From NCBI GenBank assembly GCA_027314885.1, contig DAHUZY010000005.1:1-39623 (forward strand): a stretch of 39,623 nt of DNA, in the 5' to 3' direction. The translations under genes were made by a program, and so were the position numbers. Source of the stretch: Candidatus Saccharimonadota bacterium. Lineage in GTDB: Bacteria; Patescibacteriota; Saccharimonadia; Saccharimonadales; UBA4665. The notes beneath the pieces are model-generated. The model saw only the letters and a program-made list of their open reading frames with translations, did no database searches and was not told the DNA's origin. Positions 9,217-25,866 of the stretch are shown here, one piece after another (the stretch's first letter is position 1; the number at the start of each line of letters is the position of its first letter).

Positions 9217-9309
9217 TGGCGGAGAGGGAGGGATTCGAACCCTCGCGGGAGATTGCTCCCCCCTATCGATTTAGCAAACCGACCCCTTCAGCCTCTTGGG
9301 TACCTCTCC
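9217..9309 (-). tRNA. tRNA-Ser (anticodon GCU), CCA encoded
   Basis: Reverse strand GGAGAGGTACCCAAGAGGCTGAAGGGGTCGGTTTGCTAAATCGA...GGGTTCGAATCCCTCCCTCTCCGCCA; 7-bp acceptor, long variable arm, GCT anticodon. Confidence 0.93.
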
Positions 9310-9640
9310 GTAAACAAGCCTACTACAAGACTATAGTATAGCTCATCTAGTTAATTGGCGGAACACTCGGGTCTGGAACTTTCCAGGGTTTTCGCCAGCT
9401 TATTCGCTCCGCCTTTTCAAAAAACGGGACACTTTGGCTGGACATGTCCCATTTCTGAAAGCATTATATCTGAAAAATGGCACAAATGGGACACGGGTTG
9501 CCTTAAAAAAGCTGTCCCGTTTTAATAACGTCAACACCTTAAAATGAGACAAATGAGACACTTTAAAAGGGTTTAGCGGATGGCGTAAATTAAACCAAAA
9601 TTAATTTGATTTATCTACAAGCTTATGTTAATATAATGAT

Positions 9641-11053
9641 ATGTCTGAACTTCAGGGACCACCATCTCCTACTCCCGAAGGTCAACCCATAATTGACCAT
9701 GTTCCTGGTTTAAGCCCTGAATCCTTTGCCCAGCTTGGCCGTATCGGTCTGACTGATCTATATCAAGAGAGGTTAAACTTTGATAGCCCAGTAAAACTAT
9801 GGGAAACAGTCCAAGTTAGTAATTATTACGACCTTCAAAATAGGGTTACCTCCAATCCTACCCCGATCCAAGAAGAATTAGATATGGGTTCATATATAGA
9901 AGAGGTTGAGCCACAGTCTCGATTCGCTGTCTTACAGATGAGAGAAAAAGGATATAACGTAAATCGTGCAGGGTTTTCTTCCGATCCAGAACGTATAACC
10001 CAGAGGCTAGATCTAGACAAACCCCTTACTCCAGACGTTGTAGAAACACTTCAAAAGGAGGGGTTTGAACTAGGCACGGCGTATTTATATGATACGGACA
10101 ACCCAGATAGAGGTACATGGCAGGGTGAATGGGCAGGCAGTATTGTTTTTCGACCTGAAAATCCTACCGATTTATTTTCTATTACGCAAAGATGGGATAA
10201 ATTAGCAAGCCTTTTGCCAGATCTTGGCTCGCCTGCACCACCCGCAAATTATGGCAACGCTGTTAAGTTCCGTGAGGCTGCTGAAGCAGGAACGCTGCTT
10301 GACTACTACATGCCTAATGGACAATTTGACCCAGTAGGCACAAAGTACAGCAGAGCTAGAGACCCCTTTGCCGATAGTGAACTACTTCTTTCGGAAGACC
10401 CCGTTTTTGCTATGCGAGAACTGGTATTTATTGACCAATACCATGAATTAAAAGATAGGCTAGCAAAAAACCCTGAGCCCTCGGACGAAGAAGTTAGTAT
10501 GGGTGTTTACGTGGAGGAACTAGAGCCCCAAATTCGCGATGCCGTGTTGGAACTGAGGAGAAAAGGCTACAACACGGGTTCTTCTGGGTTTTGGGGGTAT
10601 GACCATGCTGGTCAAGCAATGGACATTGCTACACCTATTGACGACAAAACTAAAGCCAGACTAGCAGAGCATATGGTAGATGTAACAGATATGGGAATAC
10701 GCTTTAACCCTGATAACCCAAGCAATGTTGATGAAATTAAGAAGACGTGGGACTTGATAGCCAATATTTTGCCAGACCTAGGCAGGCATGCTGAGCCAGC
10801 CGAAAATATGGGCGCAGAAATCTTTAGGTATGCCACAAAACATAAAATGTACGATTTTTATCTTAAGGATTGGCTATATCAACATGGGGCTTTCAGCAGC
10901 AACGATCCATTGGGAATGACGTTGATACATGAAGGATTTAGTTTTGGCAAAGACGTTTATGCCCCTCAGCGAGAAGCAGAAGCTCGGCATAGACAGGTGG
11001 TCAGGCGCATATACCAAGAATATATGAAAGAGCCACAAACGAAGCTAATATAG
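9641..11053 (+). CDS. Hypothetical protein with two copies of an unrecognised ~150-aa domain
   Basis: 470 aa; copy A NRVTSNPTPIQEELDMGSYIEEVEPQSRFAVLQMREKGYN..., copy B DRLAKNPEPSDEEVSMGVYVEELEPQIRDAVLELRRKGYN...; promoter TTGATT-17-TAATAT ends 6 nt before ATG. Confidence 0.8.
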   Translation: MSELQGPPSPTPEGQPIIDHVPGLSPESFAQLGRIGLTDLYQERLNFDSPVKLWETVQVSNYYDLQNRVTSNPTPIQEELDMGSYIEEVEPQSRFAVLQMREKGYNVNRAGFSSDPERITQRLDLDKPLTPDVVETLQKEGFELGTAYLYDTDNPDRGTWQGEWAGSIVFRPENPTDLFSITQRWDKLASLLPDLGSPAPPANYGNAVKFREAAEAGTLLDYYMPNGQFDPVGTKYSRARDPFADSELLLSEDPVFAMRELVFIDQYHELKDRLAKNPEPSDEEVSMGVYVEELEPQIRDAVLELRRKGYNTGSSGFWGYDHAGQAMDIATPIDDKTKARLAEHMVDVTDMGIRFNPDNPSNVDEIKKTWDLIANILPDLGRHAEPAENMGAEIFRYATKHKMYDFYLKDWLYQHGAFSSNDPLGMTLIHEGFSFGKDVYAPQREAEARHRQVVRRIYQEYMKEPQTKLI

Positions 11054-11127
11054 CCCAGCATAATCTTGACCTAATTACATAAATGTGCTATCATGAATAT
11101 AGTTAGCTAAAATAAAAAGCACTAAAA

Positions 11128-12483
11128 ATGAGCGAACAACTAGCCCCACCCGCTGCAGCACCACAAGGATTACCGCCTGGAATGGAGGCATTACCTCCTG
11201 GGTCTATGATGAACGCCCTACCTGAGCATGGTATCAATTTACCTGAACATGGTGTAGGGCTACCAGAACATGGCGTGGATCTGCCTGAATATGGAGTAGC
11301 TGAAATACCAGGGAGTAGCATGGGCAATGAAGCCAGCCTTAATTCAATCGCTCCTGGATATGAGCAGATGGCTATGCAGTGTGAAACGCCTGGTCAGCTA
11401 AGAGATGGTTTGTATCAGGGTATGTATTCTGAACTTCAAGATAGAGTCGCTAGCAACCCCACGCCAACTAACGAAGAACTGCGAATGGGGGCATACAAAG
11501 AAGAAATTGAGCCTCAGGCCCGTGATGCGGTAATGAACATGCGGGACAAAGGCTACAACACGAGCTCCTCTGGGTTTGGAGACCCCGCTGATGGCTATGA
11601 AACCCAACAACTAACATTGCGCACCCTGCTAACAAGTGAATCCGAAACCGCATTAAGGCAACAGGGTTTTTCGGTAGAAAACATTTCAGTCAAGCAGGGC
11701 AATACTGAAAGTAATCTTACAAACATTACCTTTCGGCCAAACAATCCTATGGATTTAGGTGAAATGAAGTCACGCTGGGATCAGCTGGCAGGTATGCTTC
11801 CCGATCGAGGCGAACCCGCACCTCCCGCTACTCATGGTAGCGCTGAAAGTTTTAGACAAGCAGCAAGGTCAAACACATTAAATGATTATGTGCAGAACTG
11901 GGAGTATAAACCAACCCAAGCCCAGAACGGGCTTAACCAGGAAGGTGCTTTCGGTACTAAAAACACAGCTCCTGAAGTAAAACCAACGGAAGATATGGGC
12001 AAACGCGAAGATGTAGGTACACATAGAGAGGCTCAGCCAGATCGCCCGAATTCGCTTCGAGAAAAAATACAATCAAGGGTAGAAAAAGAAGTCGAGGGCT
12101 TGATAACAAAAATAGGAGATAAAGCAGTTGAAGCTGTCATAAAAGCTGAGCTGGGTGAAGCGGGTATAGTGATGGAGCTAGCAAAGTTAGATGGTGAATC
12201 TAAGCAAGCTGGCCGTGTAGATGACCCTGCTAAGGCAGAAGTAATGGCCCATGCTTCTAAAGCTCAAGAGGAAGAGTTAGTGAAAGCTAATTCTGCGGCC
12301 GAAGAGGCTTCTAGACACATTGGCGTAAATGATGGCTGGCGTTCAGGCCGCTATATGACAGCAGAGAGCGAGCATCATTTTCAGCAACAAAGGGCTGAAA
12401 GAGCAAGGCAGGCTGCCGACCAGCTAGCCCAGGAAGCTGGTGAAACTTTTGAAAAAATGAAAAAGCTTGGTGAATCATCTTAA
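11128..12483 (+). CDS. Hypothetical protein with one copy of the same domain, an LPEHG heptad repeat and a charged coiled-coil C-terminus
   Basis: 451 aa; LQDRVASNPTPTNEELRMGAYKEEIEPQARDAVMNMRDKGYNTSSSGF; ALPEHGINLPEHGVGLPEHGVDLPEYGVAE. Confidence 0.8.
   Translation: MSEQLAPPAAAPQGLPPGMEALPPGSMMNALPEHGINLPEHGVGLPEHGVDLPEYGVAEIPGSSMGNEASLNSIAPGYEQMAMQCETPGQLRDGLYQGMYSELQDRVASNPTPTNEELRMGAYKEEIEPQARDAVMNMRDKGYNTSSSGFGDPADGYETQQLTLRTLLTSESETALRQQGFSVENISVKQGNTESNLTNITFRPNNPMDLGEMKSRWDQLAGMLPDRGEPAPPATHGSAESFRQAARSNTLNDYVQNWEYKPTQAQNGLNQEGAFGTKNTAPEVKPTEDMGKREDVGTHREAQPDRPNSLREKIQSRVEKEVEGLITKIGDKAVEAVIKAELGEAGIVMELAKLDGESKQAGRVDDPAKAEVMAHASKAQEEELVKANSAAEEASRHIGVNDGWRSGRYMTAESEHHFQQQRAERARQAADQLAQEAGETFEKMKKLGESS
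11215..11300 (+). repeat. In-frame 21-nt tandem repeat (LPEHGxx/LPEYGxx, four units)
   Basis: ctacctgagcatggtatcaat/ttacctgaacatggtgtaggg/ctaccagaacatggcgtggat/ctgcctgaatatggagtagct; many unit differences are synonymous. Confidence 0.85.
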
Positions 12484-12525
12484 TTCTCTAACAGATAGCT
12501 AAAATCTCCTAGACTTCCTACCCCA

Positions 12526-13911
12526 TTGCGGTACCTTGTCCTTACTATGCCGCCATCAGACCAACTGACCAATACCGCACCATACTTATTGCCAGAGGAA
12601 CAAGATGGCAAACCAATTCATACAGCCAATACTAAAATTATAAAAGTCGACTATTGTCTCTATGCTCGTAAATCCAGCGAGGATGATGAGCGGCAAGCGT
12701 TATCAATCGATTCCCAGACTAAAGAGATGACCCTGCAGGCTCAAGCCCAAAGCCTTAGCATAACGGACATCCGCAAAGAGAGTCATTCGGCCAAGATATC
12801 AGGTCGCAGGCCGGTATTTGAGCAAATGATTTCTGACGTCCGAACGGGGTTATTCAACGGAATTCTCAGCTGGGCTCCAGATAGGTTAAGCAGAAATGCC
12901 GGTGATTTAGGCGTTTTAGTAGATTTAATGGACCAGGGTAAACTAGTTGAGATACGAACTCACGGCCAAATATTCACTAATTCACCAAACGATAAGTTCC
13001 TTCTGATGATCTTATGCTCCCAGGCCAAACTTGAGAACGATAATCGGGGCATAAATGTAAAACGAGGTATGAAAACGAAGTGCGAGCTTGGCTTTAGGCC
13101 GAATATGACCCCGCTCGGTTATTTAAATGACCATTACTCCGGTAAGGGGCAAAAGAAGGTCTTTGTAGATAAAAAGCGAGCACCCATTATTAAACAAGCC
13201 TTTGAAAAAGTAGCAGATGGAGCTAGCGGCCGTGAAGCATACGACTTTATGAGATTAGCTGGCTTTAAAACAAAATCTGGTAAGGAATTTACAGTAAGCG
13301 GTGTCTATCGCATGCTTAATAACCCTTACTACTGCGGGATCTTTGAATTTCCAGTTGGTAGTGGTAAGTGGTATAAGGGCTCGTATAAACCAATTATTAC
13401 TAAAGAACTATTCGCTGCAGTTCAGCAGAAAATGACAGTAGCCCCTAAGAGCAAGCCGGGCACCAAACAATTCGACTATATCAAGCTCTTTAAGTGTGGT
13501 CGTTGCGGTTCTGGCATCACTGCCCAGGATAAGTACAAAAAACATAAGAAAACTGGGCTCACCGCCAGATATGTTTACTATCACTGTACACAAGGCAGAG
13601 ACTTTTATTGTCCAGAGCCATATATCCGTGAAGAAAAGCTAGTTGAATCCCTACTGGGGCTGCTGAGCGGGCTCACAATTGAACAAATTGAAAGCCAAGA
13701 AGCTTTACATAACGAATTGGATAAATTTAGAAGATTATCCTCTGCAGTACTAGGCTACAGCGGTAGCGCGGAACAGCAGTCGGAGATCAACTTGCATAAC
13801 TTTGCTAAATACATCTTGACAGAAGGCACAACAGCAGAAAAACGAGCCTTAGTCTCCTGCATACAAGCCACGATCTATCTTAGAAATAAAGAGTTATTTG
13901 TAGAGCTTTAG
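12526..13911 (+). CDS. Large serine recombinase / site-specific resolvase
   Basis: YCLYARKSSEDDERQALSIDSQTKEM (catalytic Ser region), SWAPDRLSRNAGDLGVLVDLMD, recombinase zinc-ribbon FKCGRCGSGITAQ...YYHCTQGRDFYCPEPYI. ATG 12547 is an alternative start. Confidence 0.93.
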   Translation: MRYLVLTMPPSDQLTNTAPYLLPEEQDGKPIHTANTKIIKVDYCLYARKSSEDDERQALSIDSQTKEMTLQAQAQSLSITDIRKESHSAKISGRRPVFEQMISDVRTGLFNGILSWAPDRLSRNAGDLGVLVDLMDQGKLVEIRTHGQIFTNSPNDKFLLMILCSQAKLENDNRGINVKRGMKTKCELGFRPNMTPLGYLNDHYSGKGQKKVFVDKKRAPIIKQAFEKVADGASGREAYDFMRLAGFKTKSGKEFTVSGVYRMLNNPYYCGIFEFPVGSGKWYKGSYKPIITKELFAAVQQKMTVAPKSKPGTKQFDYIKLFKCGRCGSGITAQDKYKKHKKTGLTARYVYYHCTQGRDFYCPEPYIREEKLVESLLGLLSGLTIEQIESQEALHNELDKFRRLSSAVLGYSGSAEQQSEINLHNFAKYILTEGTTAEKRALVSCIQATIYLRNKELFVEL

Positions 13912-13968
13912 CCCCCGCCTAAGGCTGGTTTGAGATTTATTCAGTTAGGGATTTAACAAGCAGGTACG

Positions 13969-14125
13969 AAAAGTTCCAAAGTTACGAGCTTTTCAGGGTT
14001 AATTGCGCAGTTCCACACCGAAGTGGGGTCGGATCAAAACTGAGCCCGTGAGACAAAATTGAGACTTCTGAAGGACTTTTCACACCTCTTTCATTGTCTT
14101 TGACCTCTGTAAAAAGTTCCAAAGT
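13969..14125 (+). repeat. Two copies of the direct repeat AAAAGTTCCAAAGT (13969-13982 and 14112-14125)
   Basis: 14-nt exact match; the second copy ends 5 nt before the encoded CCA of tRNA-Ser(UGA). Confidence 0.8.
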
Positions 14126-14130
14126 CTATC

Positions 14131-14220
14131 TGGCGGAGAGAGTGGGATTCGAACCCACGGTACCGTTGCCGGTACGGCACTTTTCAAGAGTGCTACCTTC
14201 AACCACTCGGTCATCTCTCC
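14131..14220 (-). tRNA. tRNA-Ser (anticodon UGA), CCA encoded
   Basis: Reverse strand GGAGAGATGACCGAGTGGTTGAAGGTAGCACTCTTGAAAAGTGCCG...GGGTTCGAATCCCACTCTCTCCGCCA; anticodon loop CTTGAAA. Confidence 0.94.
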
Positions 14221-14253
14221 AATGCAGAAAATTATAGCATAGGGGATGTACTT

Positions 14254-14280
14254 GAATGGTATAGCATACCATTCTATACT
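14254..14280 (+). promoter_or_regulatory. Promoter with perfect 9-bp operator palindrome between -35 and -10
   Basis: GAATGGTAT-AGC-ATACCATTC (14254-14274) fills the 17-bp spacer of TTGAAT-17-TATACT; ATG of the endonuclease candidate at 14290. Confidence 0.75.
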
Positions 14281-14289
14281 TTACCTTGC

Positions 14290-14658
14290 ATGAAAAATAC
14301 GCAGCATAAGGCCGAAATTGCCGTCGCACAGGCCATAGCAACTTTCACCAAACTTGGTTATGGCGTTGCCCTTCCTCTCACGGAATCCGCTGCGTACGAC
14401 ATACTACTAGATGATGGACTGAAGATATATAGGTTGCAAGTTCGTTACAGTAAGGAACGTGACGTAGAGCTAAGAAAAATCCGCTCTAATGCAAGTGGCT
14501 ATATAGTAAAAAAGGTGAAGGCTCAGTCTTATGACTGGCTATATATATTTAGGCCGACGGGAGAAGAATATTTAATAAAGAAATGCTTAATAAATAGAAG
14601 GGCAATCAGACCGCTGGAAAAGCACCGGATAAACTCAACCGTAAAACATGAAGCCTAA
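14290..14658 (+). CDS. PD-(D/E)XK endonuclease candidate (PDDEXK_5 / group I intron endonuclease-like)
   Basis: MKNTQHKAEIAVAQAIATFTKLGYGVALPLTESAAYDILLDDGLKIYRLQVRYSKERD: E...YDILLDDG...LQVRY pattern of the family. Confidence 0.65.
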   Translation: MKNTQHKAEIAVAQAIATFTKLGYGVALPLTESAAYDILLDDGLKIYRLQVRYSKERDVELRKIRSNASGYIVKKVKAQSYDWLYIFRPTGEEYLIKKCLINRRAIRPLEKHRINSTVKHEA

Positions 14659-14841
14659 AAATCTTAACGAGACCGAGCGTGCACAGCGTTAAATTTTATC
14701 CATACTGACTTTGTTTGAGTGCACCGCTTAGAGCTGCAAGTGCCTATCATCTAACGGGCGATCATGCCTCGACCTCGTCTATCCACTCAATTAAGGGGCA
14801 GCTTTAATGAGCCACGGGCGATAGAGTACAATAAAGCTATC

Positions 14842-15465
14842 ATGGACGAAGTACCTGGGGGCCAGCAACAGCCCGATAAGACAAGCGAGACCGGTTCTGC
14901 CATAACCGCAGAAGCCCCACAAGCCCCGCCACCTCAATCGGTTGCCTCGGCTCCTGAAGGAGAAAAGTCATTTTTTAAGCCCGACTCCACGTCCCAGCCC
15001 TCAGACAACGAGCGTCTCTCCTGGTCTACCTCAGAGTTTCATGAGCATGAGAAAACAGCCAGTTGGTATCTAAAGCTGGCGCTGGCAACCGTTATAATTG
15101 CTGCGGCATTCTATTTCCTGACCAGAAGCCTGCTCACTCCGGTAGTAATTGTAATAAGCGGGCTCGTAATCGGTATTCTCGGGCAAAAAAAACCAAGCCA
15201 GCGCGAATACGACCTAAGCAATCAAGGTATTCGTATTGGCCATAAACTCTACCTATACGATGAGTTTCGGCTATTTATTGTTACCCCCTCATCTGCCTTG
15301 CCCGAGGTGACACTTGTCCCCGCAAAACGCTTTCAGTTACCCGTCAGCCTTCGCTACACGCCCGAGCTTGAGGACAAGGTGATCAGCAAACTTTCGGATT
15401 ATCTACCATTCGAAGAGCGCCGACCAGACCTAGTTGACAGCTTGATGCAACGAATTAAATTTTAG
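14842..15465 (+). CDS. Membrane protein, hypothetical
   Basis: ORF 14764-15465, but MDEVPGGQQQ at 14842 is preceded by TACAAT; one hydrophobic hairpin near the middle. Confidence 0.7.
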   Translation: MDEVPGGQQQPDKTSETGSAITAEAPQAPPPQSVASAPEGEKSFFKPDSTSQPSDNERLSWSTSEFHEHEKTASWYLKLALATVIIAAAFYFLTRSLLTPVVIVISGLVIGILGQKKPSQREYDLSNQGIRIGHKLYLYDEFRLFIVTPSSALPEVTLVPAKRFQLPVSLRYTPELEDKVISKLSDYLPFEERRPDLVDSLMQRIKF

Positions 15466-15479
15466 TCTATTCCCATATA

Positions 15480-15602
15480 CTAATGGGTCTGTTCCTTGCG
15501 ATTAAGTTTGCGCTCCATGCGATGCAAGAACTCTTGTTTTGCTTGTTTGCGATCCCATTTTTCAAAATCTGACATAAGTGCTTCTGCTTCTTCTATAGAC
15601 AT
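15480..15602 (-). CDS. Small 40-aa charged protein (not in ORF track)
   Basis: MSIEEAEALMSDFEKWDRKQAKQEFLHRMERKLNRKEQTH* with GGAGAACC Shine-Dalgarno-like sequence upstream. Confidence 0.55.
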   Translation of the reverse strand: MSIEEAEALMSDFEKWDRKQAKQEFLHRMERKLNRKEQTH

Positions 15603-15690
15603 ACTTGGTTCTCCTTTTACCCGTAGTCAATATTATTAAGCGTGAGCCTAAAAGCCAGCTGTAAACTTTCTCACTAATTGACTAGAATAA

Positions 15691-16608
15691 ATGGCGATGG
15701 GTAGTATCAAAAAGTTCGCTCGGACTGTAGACCGCTATCAGCAAAAGCATAAACATGCCGCAATTATTTACGCTGTCATAAAGAAATATGGGGAAGACAG
15801 CGCTGGCAACCAGGCGGCACTTACTACGTATTATGGCTTCTTGGCACTCTTCCCTCTGTTGATGGTAGCAACCACGCTGACTAATACCCTACTGATTGGT
15901 CACCCGCAGTTGCAGACTACGGTACTGAACAGCATAACGAGTTATTTCCCTTTACTCGGCAGTGGGCTAGCACATCACGTGCATGCTCTTAGGAAAAGTG
16001 GCGTAGCGCTTTTTGTTGGCTTACTCTTCACGCTCTATGGAGCCCGTGGTGTGACAAACGCTTTTATGAGCAGTGTGCAGCACATCTGGCATGTTCCTGA
16101 AGACATTCGCCAGGGATTCCCTAAATCTTATCTTAAGAGTCTGCTCTTATTGATTATTGGCGGTCTCGGTTTTATTGTTGCGGCCATGCTGGCCGGTCTG
16201 GCAGCTTCAGCCGGGCATAGTATTTGGTCTCGCATTCTCTCTCTTGCAATCAATATCTTGATACTTTATTTGCTTTTTGCCCTACTGATCAATCTCAGCT
16301 TGCCCAAACGTATTCCGCTAAGAGATGTAAGGGTAGGGGCGAGATTTGCCGCAATCGGTATTGTTATTCTGCAACTACTCGGAGGGTATTTATTGGTTAG
16401 TGAGTTGAAGAATCTCAGTGCGCTATACAGTTATTTCGCTATACCCCTTGGGCTGCTTTTTTGGATCTATTTACAGACACAGGTACTGTTCTACGCCATA
16501 GAGCTTTCCTCAGTTACTGCTAAAAAATTATGGCCTCGTAGTCTAGACGCCCAGTCACCTACGTCCATCGATAAAAAGATTATGAGAGAGCAGCAAGTTG
16601 AATTTTAA
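15691..16608 (+). CDS. YihY/virulence factor BrkB family membrane protein
   Basis: AALTTYYGFLALFPLLMVATTL...LYGARGVTNAFMSSVQHIWHVP...FRFAAIG-type region and multiple TMs typical of YihY/UPF0761. Confidence 0.85.
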   Translation: MAMGSIKKFARTVDRYQQKHKHAAIIYAVIKKYGEDSAGNQAALTTYYGFLALFPLLMVATTLTNTLLIGHPQLQTTVLNSITSYFPLLGSGLAHHVHALRKSGVALFVGLLFTLYGARGVTNAFMSSVQHIWHVPEDIRQGFPKSYLKSLLLLIIGGLGFIVAAMLAGLAASAGHSIWSRILSLAINILILYLLFALLINLSLPKRIPLRDVRVGARFAAIGIVILQLLGGYLLVSELKNLSALYSYFAIPLGLLFWIYLQTQVLFYAIELSSVTAKKLWPRSLDAQSPTSIDKKIMREQQVEF

Positions 16609-16886
16609 GCAGCTGCTCTTGAAGGAAACGCTTCGCCTTCAGATTCCCCCGCACGAGGATAATATTCAAGCCTGACCAACCCGCTCAATGGCACCTGGCT
16701 GCCATTTAATTCTCGTTGTTGGTCATGTGCTTCCTGAGATTCAGTTCCAGCAGTTACATTCGCGTCACCTGTTGGCAGTGGACTCTCTGCTGCACGCATA
16801 GTCTGCAATACCGCATTGAACAAGCTAGAGTCGCGTAACGACTCCATGCGATTCGTTCTGCCAGCTTCTACTCCTGGGGTTTTCAT
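16605..16886 (-). CDS. Hypothetical protein
   Basis: 93-aa ORF, convergent with and overlapping the YihY stop by 4 nt. Confidence 0.5.
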   Translation of the reverse strand: MKTPGVEAGRTNRMESLRDSSLFNAVLQTMRAAESPLPTGDANVTAGTESQEAHDQQRELNGSQVPLSGLVRLEYYPRAGESEGEAFPSRAAA

Positions 16887-16970
16887 AGTTTCCCTATAGT
16901 ACAGAAAGGGGGCCGACGGCTCTGTGAAATTTGTTACATCTTTCCACAGGTACTGTATGTGTTAGTGCTC

Positions 16971-17360
16971 TTATTTAATTTCTGGGTAGCGATCGGGATG
17001 AGCACGATAATATGTCACCCACGGGTCGTTATCGTTGATCTCTACATAATCAATATATAGACCCTCTCTAAATGCACCGTTTTTATCTCGTTTTGCGTAT
17101 TGTGCGTTCTCGACGTCTTTATCCGTAAGATGGCACTGTTCTTTGAGGTCATCCAGGGCTTGCTGCACATCAGCAATTTCGTTTGCGCGGTCCTGGGTAG
17201 GAGCATCAGCAATTTCTTGAGCCTCCTCAATTATTTTCTCGACCAGCGCTTGAATATGTTCCGGCTCTTGAAGCCTTTTGTAGTGCGGTTTGGCTCCAGC
17301 CGCTAATTGCTGTGCAACGATTTTGTCTCTCACCAGCTTTTTAAATACAAACTTCGCCAT
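16971..17360 (-). CDS. MazG-like / phosphoribosyl-ATP pyrophosphohydrolase-like protein
   Basis: FKKLVRDKIVAQQLAAG...LVEKIIEEAQEIADAPTQDRANEIADVQQALDDL (ExxE...ExxD metal-binding pattern); TATAGT 6 nt before ATG. Confidence 0.82.
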   Translation of the reverse strand: MAKFVFKKLVRDKIVAQQLAAGAKPHYKRLQEPEHIQALVEKIIEEAQEIADAPTQDRANEIADVQQALDDLKEQCHLTDKDVENAQYAKRDKNGAFREGLYIDYVEINDNDPWVTYYRAHPDRYPEIK

Positions 17361-17372
17361 ACACGCACTATA

Positions 17373-19085
17373 TCACTTCTGATTAACCGAGCGTGTGCTC
17401 ACGGGGCATAGCTGAGTTCCTGCTGCGAAGATAAGATACTTTGCTTGTTTGCATTGCAGCGGATGGTTTACGACAATCATGTGTACATGGTGCACCGTAA
17501 GCTCGGTGTAAGCTGGATAAAATGTACTTGAATACACATCATATGTTTTGTGTGATGCCTCCAGTGATGAGAGCTGTGAATCTATACGCTGAAAGGCACT
17601 CTCTTTGATGGCAAAGGAAGGTATCATGTCGAAATAAAAGTTGGTAAGTACGAGAGCTATTAGTGCCACCAGTAGCGTTCTGTCATAGATGTTCTTCTTT
17701 TTGATCAGACTTAATGCGACCATAATGACTACTGGTAGTAAATACAGTTGACTGTTATATCGTGCGTAGTTCGGTATCGGCCATACAAAAGCATCTAGTA
17801 TTATTGCAACCACTCCGAGATGCACCCACCACATCCGTATTGCCGTGGATCGTTTTTTGCTTCGAAGTATTAAGTATAGGTAGCCGGCGATGGATATTAT
17901 GAATATCCCGCTATAAAGTACGCCGTATCCGCCCACTAACTTTGCGGTGCTCTGCGATTCAATAAGCAACTCACGTAGCGAGAACGTCAATGGCGCCTTA
18001 AGCCTGGCATAGGCATACGGAGCGCTACTATTACTAATTTCGCTTGATGAAAATATGCCATAGAAAAATAACTCGAGTTTTGAATCGTGTCTAATATTGG
18101 CAGGCACCCCTGTTTCTCGAAACGAACGGGTAAAGCCGCTCTCATTATAGGGAAAGGTTATTGCATGGAATTGCGTGACGTTAGTTACCAGCGGATTAAA
18201 TAGCAATAAAAGGGCAGCCAGCAGGAGACCGGCGACCATGACATAAAGATACTTTGCGTAATACAGCTTCAGACGCCAGAAAGAATAAATGCCTAACCCA
18301 ACCAGAAAGAGGGCAAAATATAAATTGCTGAACTTAGAACCCGCCAAAAGCAGCCCAGCGCCAAACAAGCATCCTACGTACAGCGAGATATGTTTTTTCT
18401 TATTAATTTGGATGATAGACGCTAAGGCTATGAGGAGGCAATCATAACCGAAACTATCTTCCATTGTGGAGAATATCTGGGCCAAAAACAGGGGAGTCAG
18501 CACAGCGCATAAGGCAATACTTACAGCTAGTTTTTGTTTAATACCCAGTGATAACAAACTTGCGCTCACAAATACAAAAGCAATAAAAGCAAAGATAAGA
18601 TTTATTAAGGTAGCCGAGTCGATATTATTGGCAACTTTATAAATGCTTGCATCAATTGCCCAAAGCACTTTTGGATTACCTTCTGCGAGCTGCCTGCTAC
18701 CGATTTGCGGGGTCCTCAAAGGGAATGTCGGATGATATATAGGATTCCAATTGTCCGCTAAAGCCATTATTGCCGGCTCATGATAATATAGCCCGTCATA
18801 ATTGGTGTCGTACGTTCGGCCAAACAAATTTGTACCCCCCAGAAATATGAGCGGTGTAGCTACCGCAAATAGAGCCAGCACTAGCAAATGAGATTTAGCG
18901 GGGTATTTAATTATTATGGTTATTGTCAAAGCAAGGACGTAGCTTAAAAATGCCACAACTAGTGTCCAGCTGTTAACAGATACGTGCAGCCAAAAGGAAA
19001 GAAAGATAAATAAAGCAAGAAAGACAATAAACAGAAATAGAAACTGACAGAACAGGAGGAGATACTTTATTTTAGAATTTATCAC
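17373..19085 (-). CDS. Multi-TM protein, glycosyltransferase-family-39-like topology (GTG start)
   Basis: ORF-track start at 19214 runs through tRNA-Ser(CGA); realistic start GTG 19085 (VINSKIKYLLLFCQFLF...). About 10+ TM segments. Confidence 0.65.
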   Translation of the reverse strand: MINSKIKYLLLFCQFLFLFIVFLALFIFLSFWLHVSVNSWTLVVAFLSYVLALTITIIIKYPAKSHLLVLALFAVATPLIFLGGTNLFGRTYDTNYDGLYYHEPAIMALADNWNPIYHPTFPLRTPQIGSRQLAEGNPKVLWAIDASIYKVANNIDSATLINLIFAFIAFVFVSASLLSLGIKQKLAVSIALCAVLTPLFLAQIFSTMEDSFGYDCLLIALASIIQINKKKHISLYVGCLFGAGLLLAGSKFSNLYFALFLVGLGIYSFWRLKLYYAKYLYVMVAGLLLAALLLLFNPLVTNVTQFHAITFPYNESGFTRSFRETGVPANIRHDSKLELFFYGIFSSSEISNSSAPYAYARLKAPLTFSLRELLIESQSTAKLVGGYGVLYSGIFIISIAGYLYLILRSKKRSTAIRMWWVHLGVVAIILDAFVWPIPNYARYNSQLYLLPVVIMVALSLIKKKNIYDRTLLVALIALVLTNFYFDMIPSFAIKESAFQRIDSQLSSLEASHKTYDVYSSTFYPAYTELTVHHVHMIVVNHPLQCKQAKYLIFAAGTQLCPVSTRSVNQK

Positions 19086-19108
19086 GCTGTTGGGTGCTTT
19101 GTTTAGAT

Positions 19109-19198
19109 TGGCGGAGAGAGTGGGATTCGAACCCACGGTACAGTTGCCTGTACACTGCTTTTCGAGAGCAGCACCTTCAACCACTCGGTCATCTCTCC
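19109..19198 (-). tRNA. tRNA-Ser (anticodon CGA), CCA encoded
   Basis: Reverse strand GGAGAGATGACCGAGTGGTTGAAGGTGCTGCTCTCGAAAAGCAGTG...CTCTCTCCGCCA; anticodon loop CTCGAAA. Confidence 0.94.
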
Positions 19199-19339
19199 TT
19201 AGATAAGGCTGCATATGGAGTATATCCTTCCGGGCGCCATAATACTACTTTCGGTGTTGGACTCGGCAGCGACCCAAATGAACTAGAGTAATATCAAATA
19301 CTATGCTAAAATTACCTCTGTTTAACTTCCGCTCTGTAT

Positions 19340-19416
19340 GCGCGTGTAGCTCAGCTGGATAGAGCGTTGGCTTGCGGAGCCAAAGGTCGTAGGTTCGAAT
19401 CCTGCCACGCGTACCA
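19340..19416 (+). tRNA. tRNA-Arg (anticodon GCG), CCA encoded
   Basis: GCGCGTGTAGCTCAGCTGGATAGAGCGTTGGCTTGCGGAGCCAAAGGTCGTAGGTTCGAATCCTGCCACGCGTACCA. Confidence 0.95.
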
Positions 19417-19418
19417 AA

Positions 19419-19462
19419 ATAGTAATTGACGTCCTGGTATAACTTTTGTTATACTTCCTTGT
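19419..19462 (+). promoter_or_regulatory. TA1 promoter/operator
   Basis: TTGACG and TATACT with inverted repeat GTATAAC-TTTT-GTTATAC (19437-19454) over the -10; ATG follows 7 nt after TATACT. Confidence 0.7.
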
Positions 19463-19699
19463 ATGAAAACTGCTGTTTCTATTCCAGATAATGTATACAC
19501 TTCGGCTGAAAAGCTTGCAAGACGATTAGGCAAATCACGCAGCCAGCTCTACTCTCAAGCCATAAGTAGCTACTTATCTAAACACCAAAAAGAAGGCTTA
19601 ACAGCAAAATTGAATGAGGTCTACTCTGATGGCGATTCAAAGGTTGATCCCTTGCTTATAAATCTGCAAACTCGTTCTCTGTCAAAGGAAGAGTGGTGA
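19463..19699 (+). CDS. TA1 antitoxin, ribbon-helix-helix MazE-like
   Basis: MKTAVSIPDNVYTSAEKLARRLGKSRSQLYSQAISSYLSKH; overlaps downstream MazF. Confidence 0.85.
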   Translation: MKTAVSIPDNVYTSAEKLARRLGKSRSQLYSQAISSYLSKHQKEGLTAKLNEVYSDGDSKVDPLLINLQTRSLSKEEW

Positions 19700-20034
19700 A
19701 ACGTGGCCAGATATGGTGGGCGGAATTACCAGAACCTACCGCTTCAGAGCCAGGTTATAAGCGACCAGTAATTGTTGTGCAAGCGGACGAGTTTAATAAT
19801 AGTCTCATTAACACAGTAATAGTAGTAGCAATAACTTCTAATTTGAGGCTTGCCGATGCGCCTGGCAATTTGTATATCCCAAAGTCAAAAACTGGACTAG
19901 GAAAAGATTCGGTTGCTAATGTATCCCAGGTAGTTACTCTCGACAAGAGTTTCTTAAAGGAACAGATCAGTCAGCTTGATAGAGTAACTATTCAGCAGCT
20001 AGATGAAGGATTACAACTAGTCCTATCTTTATAA
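19693..20034 (+). CDS. TA1 toxin, MazF/PemK endoribonuclease
   Basis: VKRGQIWWAELPEPTASEPGYKRPVIVVQADEFNNSLINTVIVVAITSNLRLADAPGNLYIP. Confidence 0.93.
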   Translation: MVKRGQIWWAELPEPTASEPGYKRPVIVVQADEFNNSLINTVIVVAITSNLRLADAPGNLYIPKSKTGLGKDSVANVSQVVTLDKSFLKEQISQLDRVTIQQLDEGLQLVLSL

Positions 20035-20042
20035 AACGATGC

Positions 20043-20070
20043 GGTTCGAATCCTGTCAGGTCAATTCTCA
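20043..20070 (+). repeat. tRNA 3'-end-like fragment, copy 1 (25-bp exact direct repeat at 20046-20070)
   Basis: GGTTCGAATCCTGTCAGGTCAATTCTCA; TCGAATCCTGTCAGGTCAATTCTCA is repeated at 21121-21145; T-loop TTCGAAT; no tRNA body upstream. Confidence 0.85.
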
Positions 20071-20113
20071 AAATTTACAACAATTCTCTCCAAGGTATTA
20101 AAAATCGTGGCTA

Positions 20114-20153
20114 TTGACATATGTTACACTTTTGGCGTACACTAAAAGTGTAA
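20114..20153 (+). promoter_or_regulatory. TA2 promoter with 10-bp operator palindrome
   Basis: TTGACA-18-TACACT; TTACACTTTT-ggcgtacact-AAAAGTGTAA at 20124-20153. Confidence 0.75.
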
Positions 20154-20169
20154 GTTAAAGGACAAGACC

Positions 20170-20442
20170 ATGACAACTACTACAGCTAAAAAATTAAGGG
20201 ACAATCTTAGTGAATACCTCGATAGATTACAAAGGGGTGAGGAAATTGTCATCATACGCCACTCAGAAATTATTGGCGTTCTCAAGCCTGCACAAAACTT
20301 ACATACCAATAATGGCTCTGCTTTGGCAGCAATGTTTAACCGAAACAAAGACTTTTTCAGTAGCAATAAAGGTAAAGTAAACGCATCAATACCTACCGAG
20401 GAACTGTACCATCACTCCCTGAACGAGTCGTATCAGCAATGA
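20170..20442 (+). CDS. TA2 antitoxin, Phd/YefM family
   Basis: MTTTTAKKLRDNLSEYLDRLQRGEEIVIIRHSEIIGVLKPAQ; overlaps toxin start by 4 nt. Confidence 0.85.
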   Translation: MTTTTAKKLRDNLSEYLDRLQRGEEIVIIRHSEIIGVLKPAQNLHTNNGSALAAMFNRNKDFFSSNKGKVNASIPTEELYHHSLNESYQQ

Positions 20443-20819
20443 ATCGCACACTGGTAGACGCAAATGTTTTACTTGAAATTCTATTTTCCCGCAAGCTTTT
20501 AGATGTATGCCAGAAATTGCTGAGCGACCCAGCAAAAGAGTATGCGATTAGCGCATTGACTCTTCATATTATTTGGTACATGGCTGAAAGGTACAAATTA
20601 TCACCTGAGCATATAAACGATGTGCTATCGGTACTTATAGTCTTACCCTTAAGTTATCAAGCTATTAAACTTGCTAATAAGCGCTATGATAATAAAGATT
20701 TTGAAGACTGCTTACAGGCAGCTTGTGCAGAGGAAAACGACTGCCAAGAAATAATCACTATTGACAGGCATTTTCAAGAATATAGCCATACATTATTGTC
20801 GGTTACTATTGTTGAGTAG
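20439..20819 (+). CDS. TA2 toxin, PIN-domain (VapC-like)
   Basis: RTLVDANVLLEILF...KDFEDCLQAACAEENDCQEIITIDRHF (PIN acidic residues). Confidence 0.85.
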   Translation: MNRTLVDANVLLEILFSRKLLDVCQKLLSDPAKEYAISALTLHIIWYMAERYKLSPEHINDVLSVLIVLPLSYQAIKLANKRYDNKDFEDCLQAACAEENDCQEIITIDRHFQEYSHTLLSVTIVE

Positions 20820-20906
20820 TTTTTACTGTGTTTTACTCAGCGCCCAAACCTAATTGATTAAGTAGCCATAACTTTACATTCGCATCCTATAATCACTGTA
20901 TATATT

Positions 20907-21029
20907 GGTTCTAATCCAGCACGGTAGTTACTGTGCTGGACTTGACGAGGGGTGACACTTCAAATGTTTCGTGCCAGCGGAGCAACTCACTCTTAAGGCG
21001 GTTCCAAGCGGAAACAGGAAGTTGCACCA
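20907..21029 (-). repeat. Interspersed repeat R1 (123 bp) encoding MVQLPVSAWNRLKSELLRWHETFEVSPLVKSSTVTTVLD* (20911-21030, minus)
   Basis: Aligns with R2 and R3 from ggttctaat to caCCA; open minus-strand frame. Confidence 0.9.
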
Positions 21030-21120
21030 TCAAGACTTTTTCAAAAATCATCTCTGTTTACAAAGATCTAAAAAATTGACGATTCTGACCAACAAAGAAC
21101 ATTTACTTCTTAAAACCGGC

Positions 21121-21145
21121 TCGAATCCTGTCAGGTCAATTCTCA
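21121..21145 (+). repeat. tRNA 3'-end-like fragment, copy 2
   Basis: TCGAATCCTGTCAGGTCAATTCTCA, identical to 20046-20070. Confidence 0.85.
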
Positions 21146-21255
21146 GGGTGTAATTGTTTAAGCTGCTAACTGCAGACTAGTAACTGAGGGTCGATTAAGA
21201 TTAATTTTATTGGCGATTTTATATAAAGCAATTCACCCCTGTTTGTTTACAAAAG

Positions 21256-21291
21256 TGTCAACTTGACAACTTCTATTCAGTTTGCTAATAT
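21256..21291 (+). promoter_or_regulatory. TA3 promoter/operator
   Basis: TGTCAA-C-TTGACA palindrome (21256-21268) overlapping -35; TTGACA-17-TAATAT, 7 nt before ATG 21299. Confidence 0.75.
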
Positions 21292-21298
21292 AGTTTAT

Positions 21299-21541
21299 AT
21301 GAAAACAATGACTACCGCAGATTTCAAAGCCAACTTTTCATCCGTTGTAGATGAGCTTAAGCATGGAAATAAAGTTGTAATTACTTATGGTCGCAAAAAA
21401 GCACCGTTAGCGACAATTATTCCGCAAAGCCAACTAGAAAAGCCAGACCACTCTGTAAAGATAGGCGACCTAAAGTCTCAAGGCTGGACATATGCGTTAA
21501 ACGGCTTTGAAATAACAGAAGAAGAGCTTATTAATTCGTGA
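21299..21541 (+). CDS. TA3 antitoxin, Phd/YefM family
   Basis: MKTMTTADFKANFSSVVDELKHGNKVVITYGRKKAPLATIIP; track start 21263 lies inside the promoter. Confidence 0.87.
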   Translation: MKTMTTADFKANFSSVVDELKHGNKVVITYGRKKAPLATIIPQSQLEKPDHSVKIGDLKSQGWTYALNGFEITEEELINS

Positions 21542-21936
21542 ATTATCTACTGGATACTCATATTCTGCTTTGGCTTAGACTAAGCCCTGAGAAGTTGAGT
21601 CCGGAACACAAAAAAATCATTGAGTCATCTGAAAATGAAAAGTTTGTTAGTTCTATAACCCAATGGGAGATTAGCTTAAAATATGCTATAGGTAAGTTAG
21701 AACTTGGCAGCCACACTCCAGACGAATTCCTGGCCGGAATATATAAAATTGGGCTAAAGGATATCACGCCCTCTTCCGAACAATGGTCCACCTATTACTT
21801 ACTGCCCAAGATAAAAGATCACAGAGACCCTTTTGACAGGATGATCATTTGGCTCGCTATGCAGAGCGGCATGACCTTACTCTCTAGAGATAACAAGTTT
21901 GGTGAATATAAACCTCATGGGCTTAGCGTAATTTAG
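21538..21936 (+). CDS. TA3 toxin, PIN-domain (VapC-like)
   Basis: MNYLLDTHILLWLRLSPEKLS...DPFDRMIIWLAMQSGMTLLSRDNKF. Confidence 0.92.
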   Translation: MNYLLDTHILLWLRLSPEKLSPEHKKIIESSENEKFVSSITQWEISLKYAIGKLELGSHTPDEFLAGIYKIGLKDITPSSEQWSTYYLLPKIKDHRDPFDRMIIWLAMQSGMTLLSRDNKFGEYKPHGLSVI

Positions 21937-21941
21937 TTTTT

Positions 21942-22063
21942 GGTTCTAATTCAGCCCGGTAGTTCTTGTACTAGACTCGGCAGAGGTGATACTTCAAAAG
22001 TTTCATGCCACCGCAATAGTTCACTCTTGAGACGGTTCCAAGCCGAAACCGGAAGGAGTACCA
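21942..22063 (-). repeat. Interspersed repeat R2 (122 bp) encoding MVLLPVSAWNRLKSELLRWHETFEVSPLPSLVQELPG* (21951-22064, minus)
   Basis: About 87% identical to R3 (16 differences in 122 by eye); intact minus-strand frame. Confidence 0.9.
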
Positions 22064-22193
22064 TATTTGTTACAGACTCATACTTTCTACCTAAACAGAT
22101 TGCTTGTTATACTTTGCTTATGAGAAAAACAAAAACTACTGTCTCTGGTGTTGAAGCCTTATTTGTAGCAGCTTTCTTCTATGCAGGCTAATG

Positions 22194-22234
22194 CAGTAGT
22201 TAGGTATATGTCCCCGATGTGGGGACAACTACTG
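22194..22234. terminator. Nested hairpin at the 3' end of TA4 (candidate bidirectional terminator)
   Basis: CAGTAGTT...GTCCCC-gatgt-GGGGAC-AACTACTG. Confidence 0.5.
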
Positions 22235-22621
22235 AAGCTGTTTAAAACAATCCTTGACGGTCAAAATCTTTATATCTTCATAAGTTTTCTGAGCTAGTAG
22301 TGGTTTATCACCAGTTACGATGGCGTCGGCCTGACCTTTTACCGCTGTTTCAAGTACTCGGTTATCTGGTTCGTCCGCCAGAATATGTAAGAATGGCTCG
22401 AAGTAGGAAACTTCGCCCTCGCCTAGCAGTTGTTGAAGTAGCTTTAGACTTTCTGGCTGTACGCCAAACTTATTTTCTAAGACACGCTGGATTTCGGCAA
22501 TAATGTAAGGTGACAATATAAGGTCATGTCTGCCACTCAGAGCAGCTAGGACTAGTTGTTCGGGCAAGCCATCAAAAAGAAGCGCAGATATAATGACATT
22601 GGTATCGACTACCAGACGCAT
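22229..22621 (-). CDS. TA4 toxin, PIN-domain
   Basis: MRLVVDTNVIISALLFDGLPEQLVLAAL...DEPDNRVLETAVKGQADAIVTGDKPLL. Confidence 0.92.
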   Translation of the reverse strand: MRLVVDTNVIISALLFDGLPEQLVLAALSGRHDLILSPYIIAEIQRVLENKFGVQPESLKLLQQLLGEGEVSYFEPFLHILADEPDNRVLETAVKGQADAIVTGDKPLLAQKTYEDIKILTVKDCFKQLQ

Positions 22622-22857
22622 TATTTACTTCGCTCAGTTCGAACGATCTCCGCCACCTCGGCTTCCGTGTATACCTTACCTTTGTACTGATTACGCACCT
22701 GCTTGGTCAGACTATCCCAGCGCTCCATAACGGCCAGTTGCTTGCGCACGGCTTGGCGGACAAAATCACTGCGGCTACTGCCTTGCTGCTTCGACTGAGC
22801 ATCAATCCGCTCAACAAGCTGCTTAGGCATTGAAATATTGAATGTTTGAGACTTCAT
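22621..22857 (-). CDS. TA4 antitoxin, CopG/ribbon-helix-helix
   Basis: MKSQTFNISMPKQLVERIDAQSKQQGSSRSDFVRQAVRKQLA; track start 22923 translates the upstream tandem repeat. Confidence 0.88.
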   Translation of the reverse strand: MKSQTFNISMPKQLVERIDAQSKQQGSSRSDFVRQAVRKQLAVMERWDSLTKQVRNQYKGKVYTEAEVAEIVRTERSK

Positions 22858-22863
22858 ACAAAC

Positions 22864-22949
22864 ATTGTATGGATTTACTGACAGATTGTCAATCCTGTTA
22901 CTGCACATCCTGTTACTGCACATCCTGTTACTGCACTCTGTTACTGCAA
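22864..22949 (-). promoter_or_regulatory. TA4 promoter, operator palindrome and upstream 15-bp tandem repeats
   Basis: Minus strand TTGACA-17-TACAAT, 6 nt before ATG; TGACA-ATC-TGTCA over the -35; TGCAGTAACAGGATG/T repeated about 3.5 times upstream. Confidence 0.75.
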
Positions 22950-22981: not shown

Positions 22982-23103
22982 GGTTCTAATCCAGCCCGGT
23001 AGTTATTGCGCTAGACTTGGCAGAGGCTATACTTTAAGCGTTTCGTGCCACCGTAATAGTTCGTTTTTGAGGCGGTTCCAAGCCGAAACCGGAAGGAGTA
23101 CCA
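22982..23103 (-). repeat. Interspersed repeat R3 (122 bp), frame truncated: (L)VLLPVSAWNRLKNELLRWHETLKV* (23027-23104, minus)
   Basis: Aligns with R1/R2; in-frame TAG interrupts the conserved frame. Confidence 0.9.
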
Positions 23104-23288
23104 ATTCCTTGTTTCAGCCATGTCTTTAATACATCTTTTAGACTGGATCTTGGTTATCTTTAGCTCTTTCAGAGCACGCTCTAACTAACAGGTTTATGTT
23201 TGTTCTGTTTCGTTAAACTACTAGGTAATGAAGTATCTATTTGTACTACCTATTGCATTTAGTAATGGATTTTGCTACAGTAATGAAT

Positions 23289-23537
23289 ATGAAAACTACA
23301 CTTACCATTACCCGCAAGGGCCAAACTACAATACCAGCTCCTGTGCGCCATAAGATGGGATTAAATAATAGCGGTGGAATTTTACAGATGAGCTTCAATG
23401 AGAAGAAGGGTGAGCTTGTGATATCAAAGTTTACCAATATAGATGAGCTGAGCAAAAAGTTAAGTGGATATATTAAGCCTGGGGTAAAGCCTCTCGTTGA
23501 TGCAGATGCATTTTACCAAGCAAACAGGTCTATATAA
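23289..23537 (+). CDS. TA5 antitoxin, AbrB/SpoVT-like
   Basis: MKTTLTITRKGQTTIPAPVRHKMGLNNSGGILQMSF; -10-like TACAGT 7 nt upstream. Confidence 0.88.
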   Translation: MKTTLTITRKGQTTIPAPVRHKMGLNNSGGILQMSFNEKKGELVISKFTNIDELSKKLSGYIKPGVKPLVDADAFYQANRSI

Positions 23538-23538
23538 G

Positions 23539-23943
23539 ATGAAATATGCAGGCTCTCTAGATACAAACGTCTTACTACGCTTATTGCTTAATGATATAGC
23601 TGAGCAGCACACTGCTACAAAAAGACTATTAGGCCAAGCCCCTAATCAATTTGCTGTTGCCGATACAGCGATAGTTGAATTGGTATTTGCACTTAACCGA
23701 TACTATGGATTTAGTCGCTCACAGACCGCAGAAGCAGTAGAAGGCCTCATGAGCTTAAAGGAAATAAACTGTAACAGGGCTCTTTTTGAACGAGCTATAC
23801 CTTTTTATGTTACGCATACTGGTTTATCATTCGAGGATTGCTGTTTATCTGTATATACGCAGCTCAATGATGCTGAACCCTTATGGACATTTGATAAAAA
23901 ATTAGCTAATCAAGCTCTTAACTCAAAGTTGGTTGTAGCGTAG
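23539..23943 (+). CDS. TA5 toxin, PIN-domain
   Basis: MKYAGSLDTNVLLRLLLNDIAEQHTATKRLL...FEDCCLSVYTQLNDAEPLWTFDKKLA. Confidence 0.9.
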   Translation: MKYAGSLDTNVLLRLLLNDIAEQHTATKRLLGQAPNQFAVADTAIVELVFALNRYYGFSRSQTAEAVEGLMSLKEINCNRALFERAIPFYVTHTGLSFEDCCLSVYTQLNDAEPLWTFDKKLANQALNSKLVVA

Positions 23944-24063
23944 CCCTCCATTATAGAGTTTTTGACTTCTGGGACTACGGTGTACCAGATACAATTTTGG
24001 TTTCTAACAATCTGTAAGGTTTATTTTGGTATTTACTGTATTTTGCTACTTGTTTTTACTTAA

Positions 24064-24635: not shown

Positions 24636-25043
24636 TTATAACCGTTTATCTCTTAACCAGTAATGAGTATGGGTTAGGCTGAATCCACCGTCAACAACTA
24701 CTGTTTCACCGGTAATAAATCTGGCTTTATCTGATACCAAGAATTCTACCACTTCACCGATATCTAATGGTTGCTGATTTACCCCGAGAGGTACAAGGTT
24801 GTTCGGCTCAGGATTTTCTGAGTCCACAACTATACCTGGAGCAACTGCATTGACCTTAATCCCATATTTAGCAAGCTCTAATGCCGATTCTTTAACAAAC
24901 ATTTCTATTCCGGCCTTGGACACAGAGTACATTGGGTGAGTTCTTACTACCTTACTGTGGGTAGAAGAAATAAAGACTATATTGCCCTTAAGTTTGTTTT
25001 GAACCCAATCTTTAGCAAACAATGAAGTTAAGTAAAATCTCAT
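24636..25043 (-). pseudogene. 5'-truncated SDR oxidoreductase
   Basis: Has NIVFISSTHS, YSVSKAG, VNAVAPGIV, ITGETVVVDGGF but lacks the N-terminal Rossmann GxxxGxG; in-frame stop just upstream. Confidence 0.75.
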
Positions 25044-25291: not shown

Positions 25292-25771
25292 ATGAGACTA
25301 AAATTAATTCGAATCCCGCTAGTATTAATCTTTCATACAATAACTGTTTATTCTGTTAAAGTATTGCTTATGTTAGTATACGTACCTTTCATTTTGTTAT
25401 TTATAGTTGTTCTAATTGCGATTGGCGTATTTGGCAGAAAGCTACTGGCGAAACATAGTAACAAAGGACAGCTTAAAGTTGCAACAACAATAGGGACTCT
25501 AGCCGAAATTCTGCTATTTGTATTTGGAGTTATGGGAGCTGATTACATTCATCAATCCCAAAACGTTGGCGCTGGCTGTCCATCTCATTATCCCTATATA
25601 ACAGCAGTAGTAATTACTGGAATAATCGGCTTTTTTTCTTTCTTGTTTGCCACCTATCAGAGTTTCGCTTGGAACAAGAAAAATAGTTTTGTTTTTTTAA
25701 TAGCTACTATAACTTTATTGGTAACTACAATAATAACTTTGTTTTACGCTAGCTTTTGTCTAACGTGGTAA
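25292..25771 (+). CDS. Small multi-TM membrane protein
   Basis: 159-aa ORF, four hydrophobic segments. Confidence 0.6.
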   Translation: MRLKLIRIPLVLIFHTITVYSVKVLLMLVYVPFILLFIVVLIAIGVFGRKLLAKHSNKGQLKVATTIGTLAEILLFVFGVMGADYIHQSQNVGAGCPSHYPYITAVVITGIIGFFSFLFATYQSFAWNKKNSFVFLIATITLLVTTIITLFYASFCLTW

Positions 25772-25866
25772 CGGAGTAGCACTAAATGAATTACTCATTA
25801 TTGCGTTTCTGACTTCTCGTACTACGCTGTGCTGAATATAGTTACATTGACAGCTGAGGAACGTAA

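Follow-up and report, generated by a model that had tools for sequence, protein, structure and literature searches.

We report an array of small cassettes behind a tRNA-Arg gene in a Saccharibacteria-type genome. In our judgement it is probable that the right arm shared by these cassettes (designated A) is the attR-side end of an element that a large serine recombinase (LSR) integrates at tRNA-Arg, and that the cassettes were moved as passengers of this LSR. The anatomy of the array, the boundaries of its units, the in-frame split of the LSR gene and the reappearance of individual cassettes at more than one site are established at the level of sequence comparison.

The window is the whole stretch of 39,623 nucleotides that was analysed. 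Its source genome (G000) comprises 928,885 bases (~929 kb) and is 91.5% complete; the array is on contig C55. The region of A and of a repeated 25-mer served as the query in a search of 199 related genomes, which returned many matching copies in the same family as the window's genome. All compared loci are assemblies, mostly MAGs. A and the left arm B1 (described below) recur at tRNA-Arg genes with four anticodons in ~30 genomes of the family, and the array sits 3' of tRNA-Arg in every case where its tRNA end is on the contig. In a literature search confined to open-licence papers, this arrangement is not described. The features of the array are given in Table 1.

Table 1. Target tRNA, TA modules, arms and recombinase tails of the array (window coordinates)
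Feature	Position	Strand	Basis and comparison
tRNA-Arg (GCG), intact; integration target (attB core) is CGCGTACCA at its 3' end	19340-19416	+	ARAGORN, Rfam; cassette boundaries of relatives at GTACCA
TA1: RHH antitoxin 19463-19699, PemK/MazF toxin 19693-20034	19463-20034	+	Pfam; homologous cassette in L037 with the same GTACCA-type start
B1, truncated (last 29 nt), holding the first 25-mer	20042-20070	+	Homology switch from L037 to L045 within GGTTCGAATCC
TA2: Phd/YefM antitoxin 20170-20442, PIN toxin 20439-20819	20170-20819	+	Pfam; single behind tRNA-Arg(CCG) and B1 in L045, 91%
A copy 1, ending GCACCA; minus-strand LSR tail frameshifted	20907-21029	+	Repeat
B1, complete, left arm of the TA3 cassette	21030-21145	+	13 B1 copies; inner end is the second 25-mer
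TA3: Phd/YefM antitoxin 21263-21541, PIN toxin 21538-21936	21263-21936	+	Pfam; 87-89% in L029, L036, L038, L040
A copy 2, ending GAGTACCA	21942-22063	+	Repeat
LSR tail MVLLPVSAWNRLKSELLRWHETFEVSPLPSLVQ on A copy 2, beginning at the junction	21966-22064	-	Coding analysis
TA4: PIN toxin 22229-22621, RHH antitoxin 22621-22923	22229-22923	-	Pfam
A copy 3, ending GAGTACCA; minus-strand LSR tail with one stop	22982-23103	+	Repeat
TA5: PrlF/AbrB-like antitoxin 23241-23537, PIN toxin 23497-23943	23241-23943	+	Pfam
Type-2 right end GGTGTACCA, with the tail W-YTVVPEVKNSI encoded on the minus strand	23910-23987	+	LSR remnant of L049 at tRNA-Arg, matching frame
Type-2 tail, decayed, HSVVREVRNAIM, core lost; presumed outer end of the array	25760-25834	-	Sequence comparison

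A preliminary description of this DNA was built on two copies of the 25-mer TCGAATCCTGTCAGGTCAATTCTCA at 20046-20070 and 21121-21145, both on the plus strand. Sequence search finds both, and the order given there (tRNA, TA1, first copy, TA2, second copy) holds, the tRNA-Arg being intact. The repeat extends to 29 nt at 97% identity (20042-20070 and 21117-21145). The window has no further match at up to three mismatches (shuffled sequences predict none), and the whole genome has no third copy, so that the suggested genome-wide check for another tRNA or a dispersed repeat returned the two copies only. The 25-mer had been taken for an att core; it is instead the inner end of the left arm B1 (~116 nt, TCAAGACTTTT…CGGTTCGAATCCTGTTAGGTCAATTCTC). 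The units are bounded by GTACCA: the crossover position is the tRNA's own CCA end, 90-100 bp from the 25-mer. At 20907-21145, A is followed directly by B1, which the second 25-mer closes.

Nine of the 13 copies of B1 stand directly behind an intact tRNA-Arg (anticodons GCG, TCG, CCG and TCT) and the other four behind A. Three more families of left ends (8, 5 and 3 copies) behave in the same way, and many left ends are unique. A palindrome resembling a T-arm, GGTTCGAATCC, opens the 25-mer, and a similar one opens A; the T-arm-like part GGTTCGAATCCTGTYRGGT differs at one position from tRNA-Arg 3' ends in relatives. A separate parent tRNA, which the preliminary description had considered, is ruled out by the absence of the 25-mer elsewhere in the genome and by the B1 copies that abut tRNA-Arg genes; the parent is tRNA-Arg itself. 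The proposal of repeated tRNA-targeted integration is retained as regards site-specific insertion of TA cargo at the tRNA 3' end, but not as regards the 25-mers as att copies.

The first 25-mer had also been considered a mark of integration. The homologies on its two sides are best explained by a ~210-bp deletion (A and most of B1) that joined two cassettes and left this truncated B1 as a scar. In L037, a TA1 homologue of 82% identity is followed by A, which starts GGTTCTAATCC; the window has GGTTCGAATCC, from the inner end of B1, at the corresponding position after TA1, and TA2 beyond it. We favour the fusion because the homology passes from L037 (TA1-A) to L045 (B1-TA2) inside this motif. 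The deletion would have taken place between two GGTTC(T/G)AATCC motifs, either through a recombinase or through short-homology recombination.

A cassette thus delimited runs from GTACCA through a left sequence (often B1) and the cargo to the right arm A, which ends in GTACCA. In the window A follows TA2, TA3 and TA4 once each, and in its genome A is confined to this array. The cargo is mainly TA modules, mostly one per cassette; relatives also carry Fic, methyltransferase, nucleotidyltransferase, deacetylase, kinase and other genes. The same cassettes are found at different sites. A 701-bp cassette, 91-92% identical in L040, L053 and L056, has three different left neighbours (A, tRNA-Arg(GCG) and a third type of end), and both its ends are within a few bases of GTACCA in all three. 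The TA3 cassette (21030-22063) stands, at 87-89% identity, behind A in L029, as it does in the window, behind tRNA-Arg(GCG) in L036 and behind tRNA-Arg(TCG) in L038. By inspection, the first unit of L040 contains an AbrB/PIN pair resembling TA5. A second type of tail (W-YTVVREVRN…), unrelated to that of A, closes TA5 and recurs in decayed form further on; it presumably belongs to another tRNA-Arg LSR. The presumed array also includes a short-chain dehydrogenase gene truncated to its C-terminal half (24636-25043; Pfam profile from about position 113). Upstream, three tRNA-Ser genes (GCT, TGA, CGA) and tRNA-Arg are spread over 10 kb (9217-19416), with at least two apparent integration hot spots.

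The repeat called R1 beside TA2 in the preliminary description does exist; it is A (GGTTCTAATCCAGC…GGAAGGTGTACCA, 122-125 nt), present in three copies and more informative than the 25-mers. Copies of A are mostly 75-90% identical to each other. From the junction onward, their minus strand encodes a conserved peptide of ~33 residues, (N)TG-VHLPVSAWNRLKSELLRWHETFEVSPLPSLAQ-stop, in which the initial NTG corresponds to CCA and the next base. Across 34 copies the ratio of synonymous to non-synonymous changes on this strand is 5.7 in the frame of the peptide, whereas the remaining frames give 0.85 and 0.59; changes are strongly biased towards synonymous ones in one frame only, and we therefore consider the strand coding. 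Some copies, including the first and third of the window, have frameshifts or stops, which indicates decay. No Rfam family matches A, and RNAalifold finds 0 conserved pairs in the 34 aligned copies; an RNA element or attC was rejected on these grounds. The peptide could not be assigned to a known protein family: it has no Pfam match, and its pattern has no match in phage, plasmid or IMG/VR sequences. On the evidence of the rejoined reading frames described below, it is the C-terminal tail of an LSR.

A family profile search identified LSR genes that overlap tRNA-Arg in three of the 93 family genomes searched (G083, G084, G031); all three genomes carry A arms, and all three proteins end in NSA(L/M)VHP. 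No such gene is present in the window's own genome at its 91.5% completeness. In G083 the LSR gene lies antisense over tRNA-Arg, and its frame runs via the core into the tail encoded by the A at the far end; joined, the LSR, the core and the tail form one ORF of 548 aa ending ENSALVHLPVMAWNKLKDELLRWHETFEVTPLPSLAQ. Pfam assigns Resolvase, Recombinase and zinc-ribbon domains to the LSR (PF00239/PF07508). This element measures 14.4 kb from tRNA-Arg to A and, besides the LSR, encodes a restriction-type helicase, a DNA methylase and a tyrosine recombinase; more A-ended cassettes lie beyond it on the contig. G001, of the same genus as the window's genome, has a related element ending in A, then a unit A, B1, cargo, A. 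The LSR remnant of L049 was tried as the source of A and rejected, its frame being wrong; it fits the type-2 tail.

The same organization is seen at other tRNAs. Distant relatives of the tail occur in other families at the far ends of LSR elements at tRNA-Glu, tRNA-Leu and tRNA-Gln, where the LSR genes overlap the tRNA 3' end antisense. The far-end cores copy the terminus of the target tRNA: the Glu core is GGTCACCA, G106 having a single mismatch, and the Leu core is GGGCACCA. When the LSR, the core and the far end were joined computationally, as they would be in the circle, a single open frame resulted in all tested elements (Glu three, Leu one, Gln one), and G077 has an unsplit LSR gene with the core within the ORF and no adjoining tRNA. 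Since the LSR frame rejoins across the core, these comparisons place attP inside the LSR gene, with the C-terminal tail severed on integration, and identify A as the attR-side end. The TA cassettes of the window are therefore to be regarded as non-autonomous units bounded by such tail-bearing ends.

Several related observations were made on LSR genes and tRNAs. LSR genes with tRNA targets form a broad set: their 3' ends overlap tRNA-Gln, -Leu, -Lys, -Asn, -Pro, -Gly, -Glu and -Met in antisense (L188, L189, L190, L191, L193, L196, L200-L205 and L212-L217); far-end tails were examined for the Arg, Glu, Leu and Gln elements only. The window contains another LSR gene (12526-13911, 461 aa) ~220 bp from tRNA-Ser(TGA) (14131-14220), and similar LSRs are found near tRNA-Ser elsewhere. 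On contig C39 of the same genome an LSR element (L089, 1439-5084) overlaps tRNA-Pro(GGG); it also contains a tyrosine recombinase and a partner gene (317 aa) that such elements have in common. In L136, L137, L140, L141 and L252, as judged by eye, the integrated LSR end places a hairpin and a T-run beside the tRNA 3' end; an LSR element may for this reason give the tRNA a new terminator.

We propose the following mechanism. As long as the element is a free circle, its LSR gene would read through attP (TGGTACACC, complementary to the tRNA 3' end) into the tail of ~33 codons. On integration at tRNA-Arg the LSR body would come to lie antisense to the tRNA at attL, with tRNA-encoded residues as its new C-terminus, and the severed tail would remain at the far end as A. 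Cassettes would have lost the LSR and kept the tail-bearing end. An LSR element that is first in an array could recombine its attL with any A that serves as a more distant attR, leave along with the intervening cassettes and integrate with them at another tRNA-Arg; if it later left alone, through attL and the proximal attR, the tRNA would remain joined to a cassette. We infer from the sequences both this LSR as the catalyst of cassette movement and the passenger route; alternatively, the tRNA-Arg LSR might act on the cassettes in trans. The passenger route would explain the common orientation of the cassettes, the leading position that the LSR element has in G083, and left ends unlike the LSR side. 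The left sequences (B1, B2, B3 and others) show no resemblance to the LSR-coding left end, and the junction of A with any of them is therefore not a normal attP; a by-eye comparison of B1 and B2 with the LSR-side arm established no shared half-site motif. Most arrays may be fossil, or reliant on rare visits by an LSR, considering that the tRNA-Arg LSR is in so few of the family genomes and not in that of the window. The varied cargos behind B1, and the T-arm-like sequence at its inner end, may reflect a second site of recombination outside this model. A wider scheme is conceivable, and we offer it tentatively, as somewhat less probable than its negation: a family of LSRs in Saccharibacteria, each specific for one tRNA 3' end and with attP in its own gene, in which the tail swap switches activity or direction, the tails anchor open-ended, integron-like arrays at tRNA-Arg, visiting LSR elements mobilize the cassettes in trans, and a second recombinase swaps cargo at T-arm-like motifs.

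Natural transformation with homologous recombination between copies of A and the tRNA-Arg flanks, no site-specific recombinase being active today, seems to us unlikely as an explanation of the arrays. The copies of A are similar enough to provide homology, and most array genomes are without the LSR; however, the left boundary is exactly GTACCA, with 6-9 bp in common, at four tRNA-Arg genes, and site-specific recombination is therefore needed, at least at the founding of the arrays.

A tyrosine integrase is the usual expectation at tRNA genes, and the preliminary description recommended a search for integrases. The genome does contain two tyrosine recombinases (on C34 and C39), but the array contig has neither. 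Integration by a conventional enzyme of the phage or ICE type through the tRNA T-loop, with the 25-mers as its att copies, would agree with the palindromes that open the 25-mer and A, with the two T-arm-like motifs between which TA1 and TA2 were fused, and with the tyrosine recombinase genes inside the G083 element, on the G001 array contig and on C39. We nevertheless regard it as improbable: the units are bounded by the CCA end and not by the T-loop, most array-bearing genomes have a chromosomal Xer-like enzyme alone, and the far ends encode an LSR tail. The tyrosine recombinase is present within LSR elements, while the tRNA junctions bear the LSR tail; the recombinase tied to these ends is a serine one. 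As particular candidates, the C39-like recombinase was rejected as the cassette integrase (it occurs sporadically, most array genomes lack it, and it belongs to LSR elements), and Xer as the cassette mover (it is found nearly everywhere, with no specific link). An integron-like system, with A as a folded single-strand site of the attC type and tRNA-Arg as attI, would suit the array form, the small cassettes of one or two genes in one orientation, the many TA modules and the varied accessory genes, yet it is hardly credible: it is largely refuted by the lack of conserved pairs in A, and A codes for protein on the opposite strand while both tyrosine recombinases of the genome lie off the array contig.

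Saccharibacteria are tiny-genome symbionts whose gene traffic is little known, and they gain here a concrete cassette system and a new view of gene shuffling. A tail at a tRNA-like CCA core is a simple diagnostic for true ends of LSR elements in this group, and LSRs with clean tRNA targets are of interest as tools for genome insertion.

Among known systems, tycheposons are likewise islands of streamlined genomes that are anchored at tRNAs and exchange their cargo, but they use tyrosine recombinases and the cargo is larger; we know of no split recombinase in them. Integron cassettes are similar in being tandem, small, TA-rich and of one orientation, with a conserved 3' site; here, however, there is no folded attC, the associated enzyme is a serine recombinase and the anchor is tRNA-Arg. 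The pdif (Xer-dif) modules of Acinetobacter plasmids (PMC6449649) also place TA modules between short recombination sites, which are dif sites served by XerCD there and tRNA ends with an LSR tail here. LSR integrative elements (phage, ICE, IME) have the same Resolvase, Recombinase and zinc-ribbon LSR, a fixed target, and a short core that is identical in attL and attR. In the present case the junction of tRNA with left end and A have GTACCA in common with attB. The differences are that the target is the CCA end of a tRNA, that attP is in the LSR gene and the tail is removed on integration, and that non-autonomous cassettes build up behind tail-bearing ends. The cassettes of the window encode no LSR, whereas the putative parent element in G083 does; the array is a derivative of an LSR element and not a full element. 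Finally, the 'suicidal' integrases of the SSV type belong to the tyrosine recombinases and, according to a review (PMC8371274), are confined to Archaea. They also have the att site within the recombinase gene, which integration splits; the enzyme considered here is a bacterial serine recombinase that loses the C-terminal tail only and keeps its catalytic domain. Such an attP suggests a built-in integration switch and, if true, a bacterial serine recombinase whose gene contains attP would represent another solution, independent of that of the SSV type.
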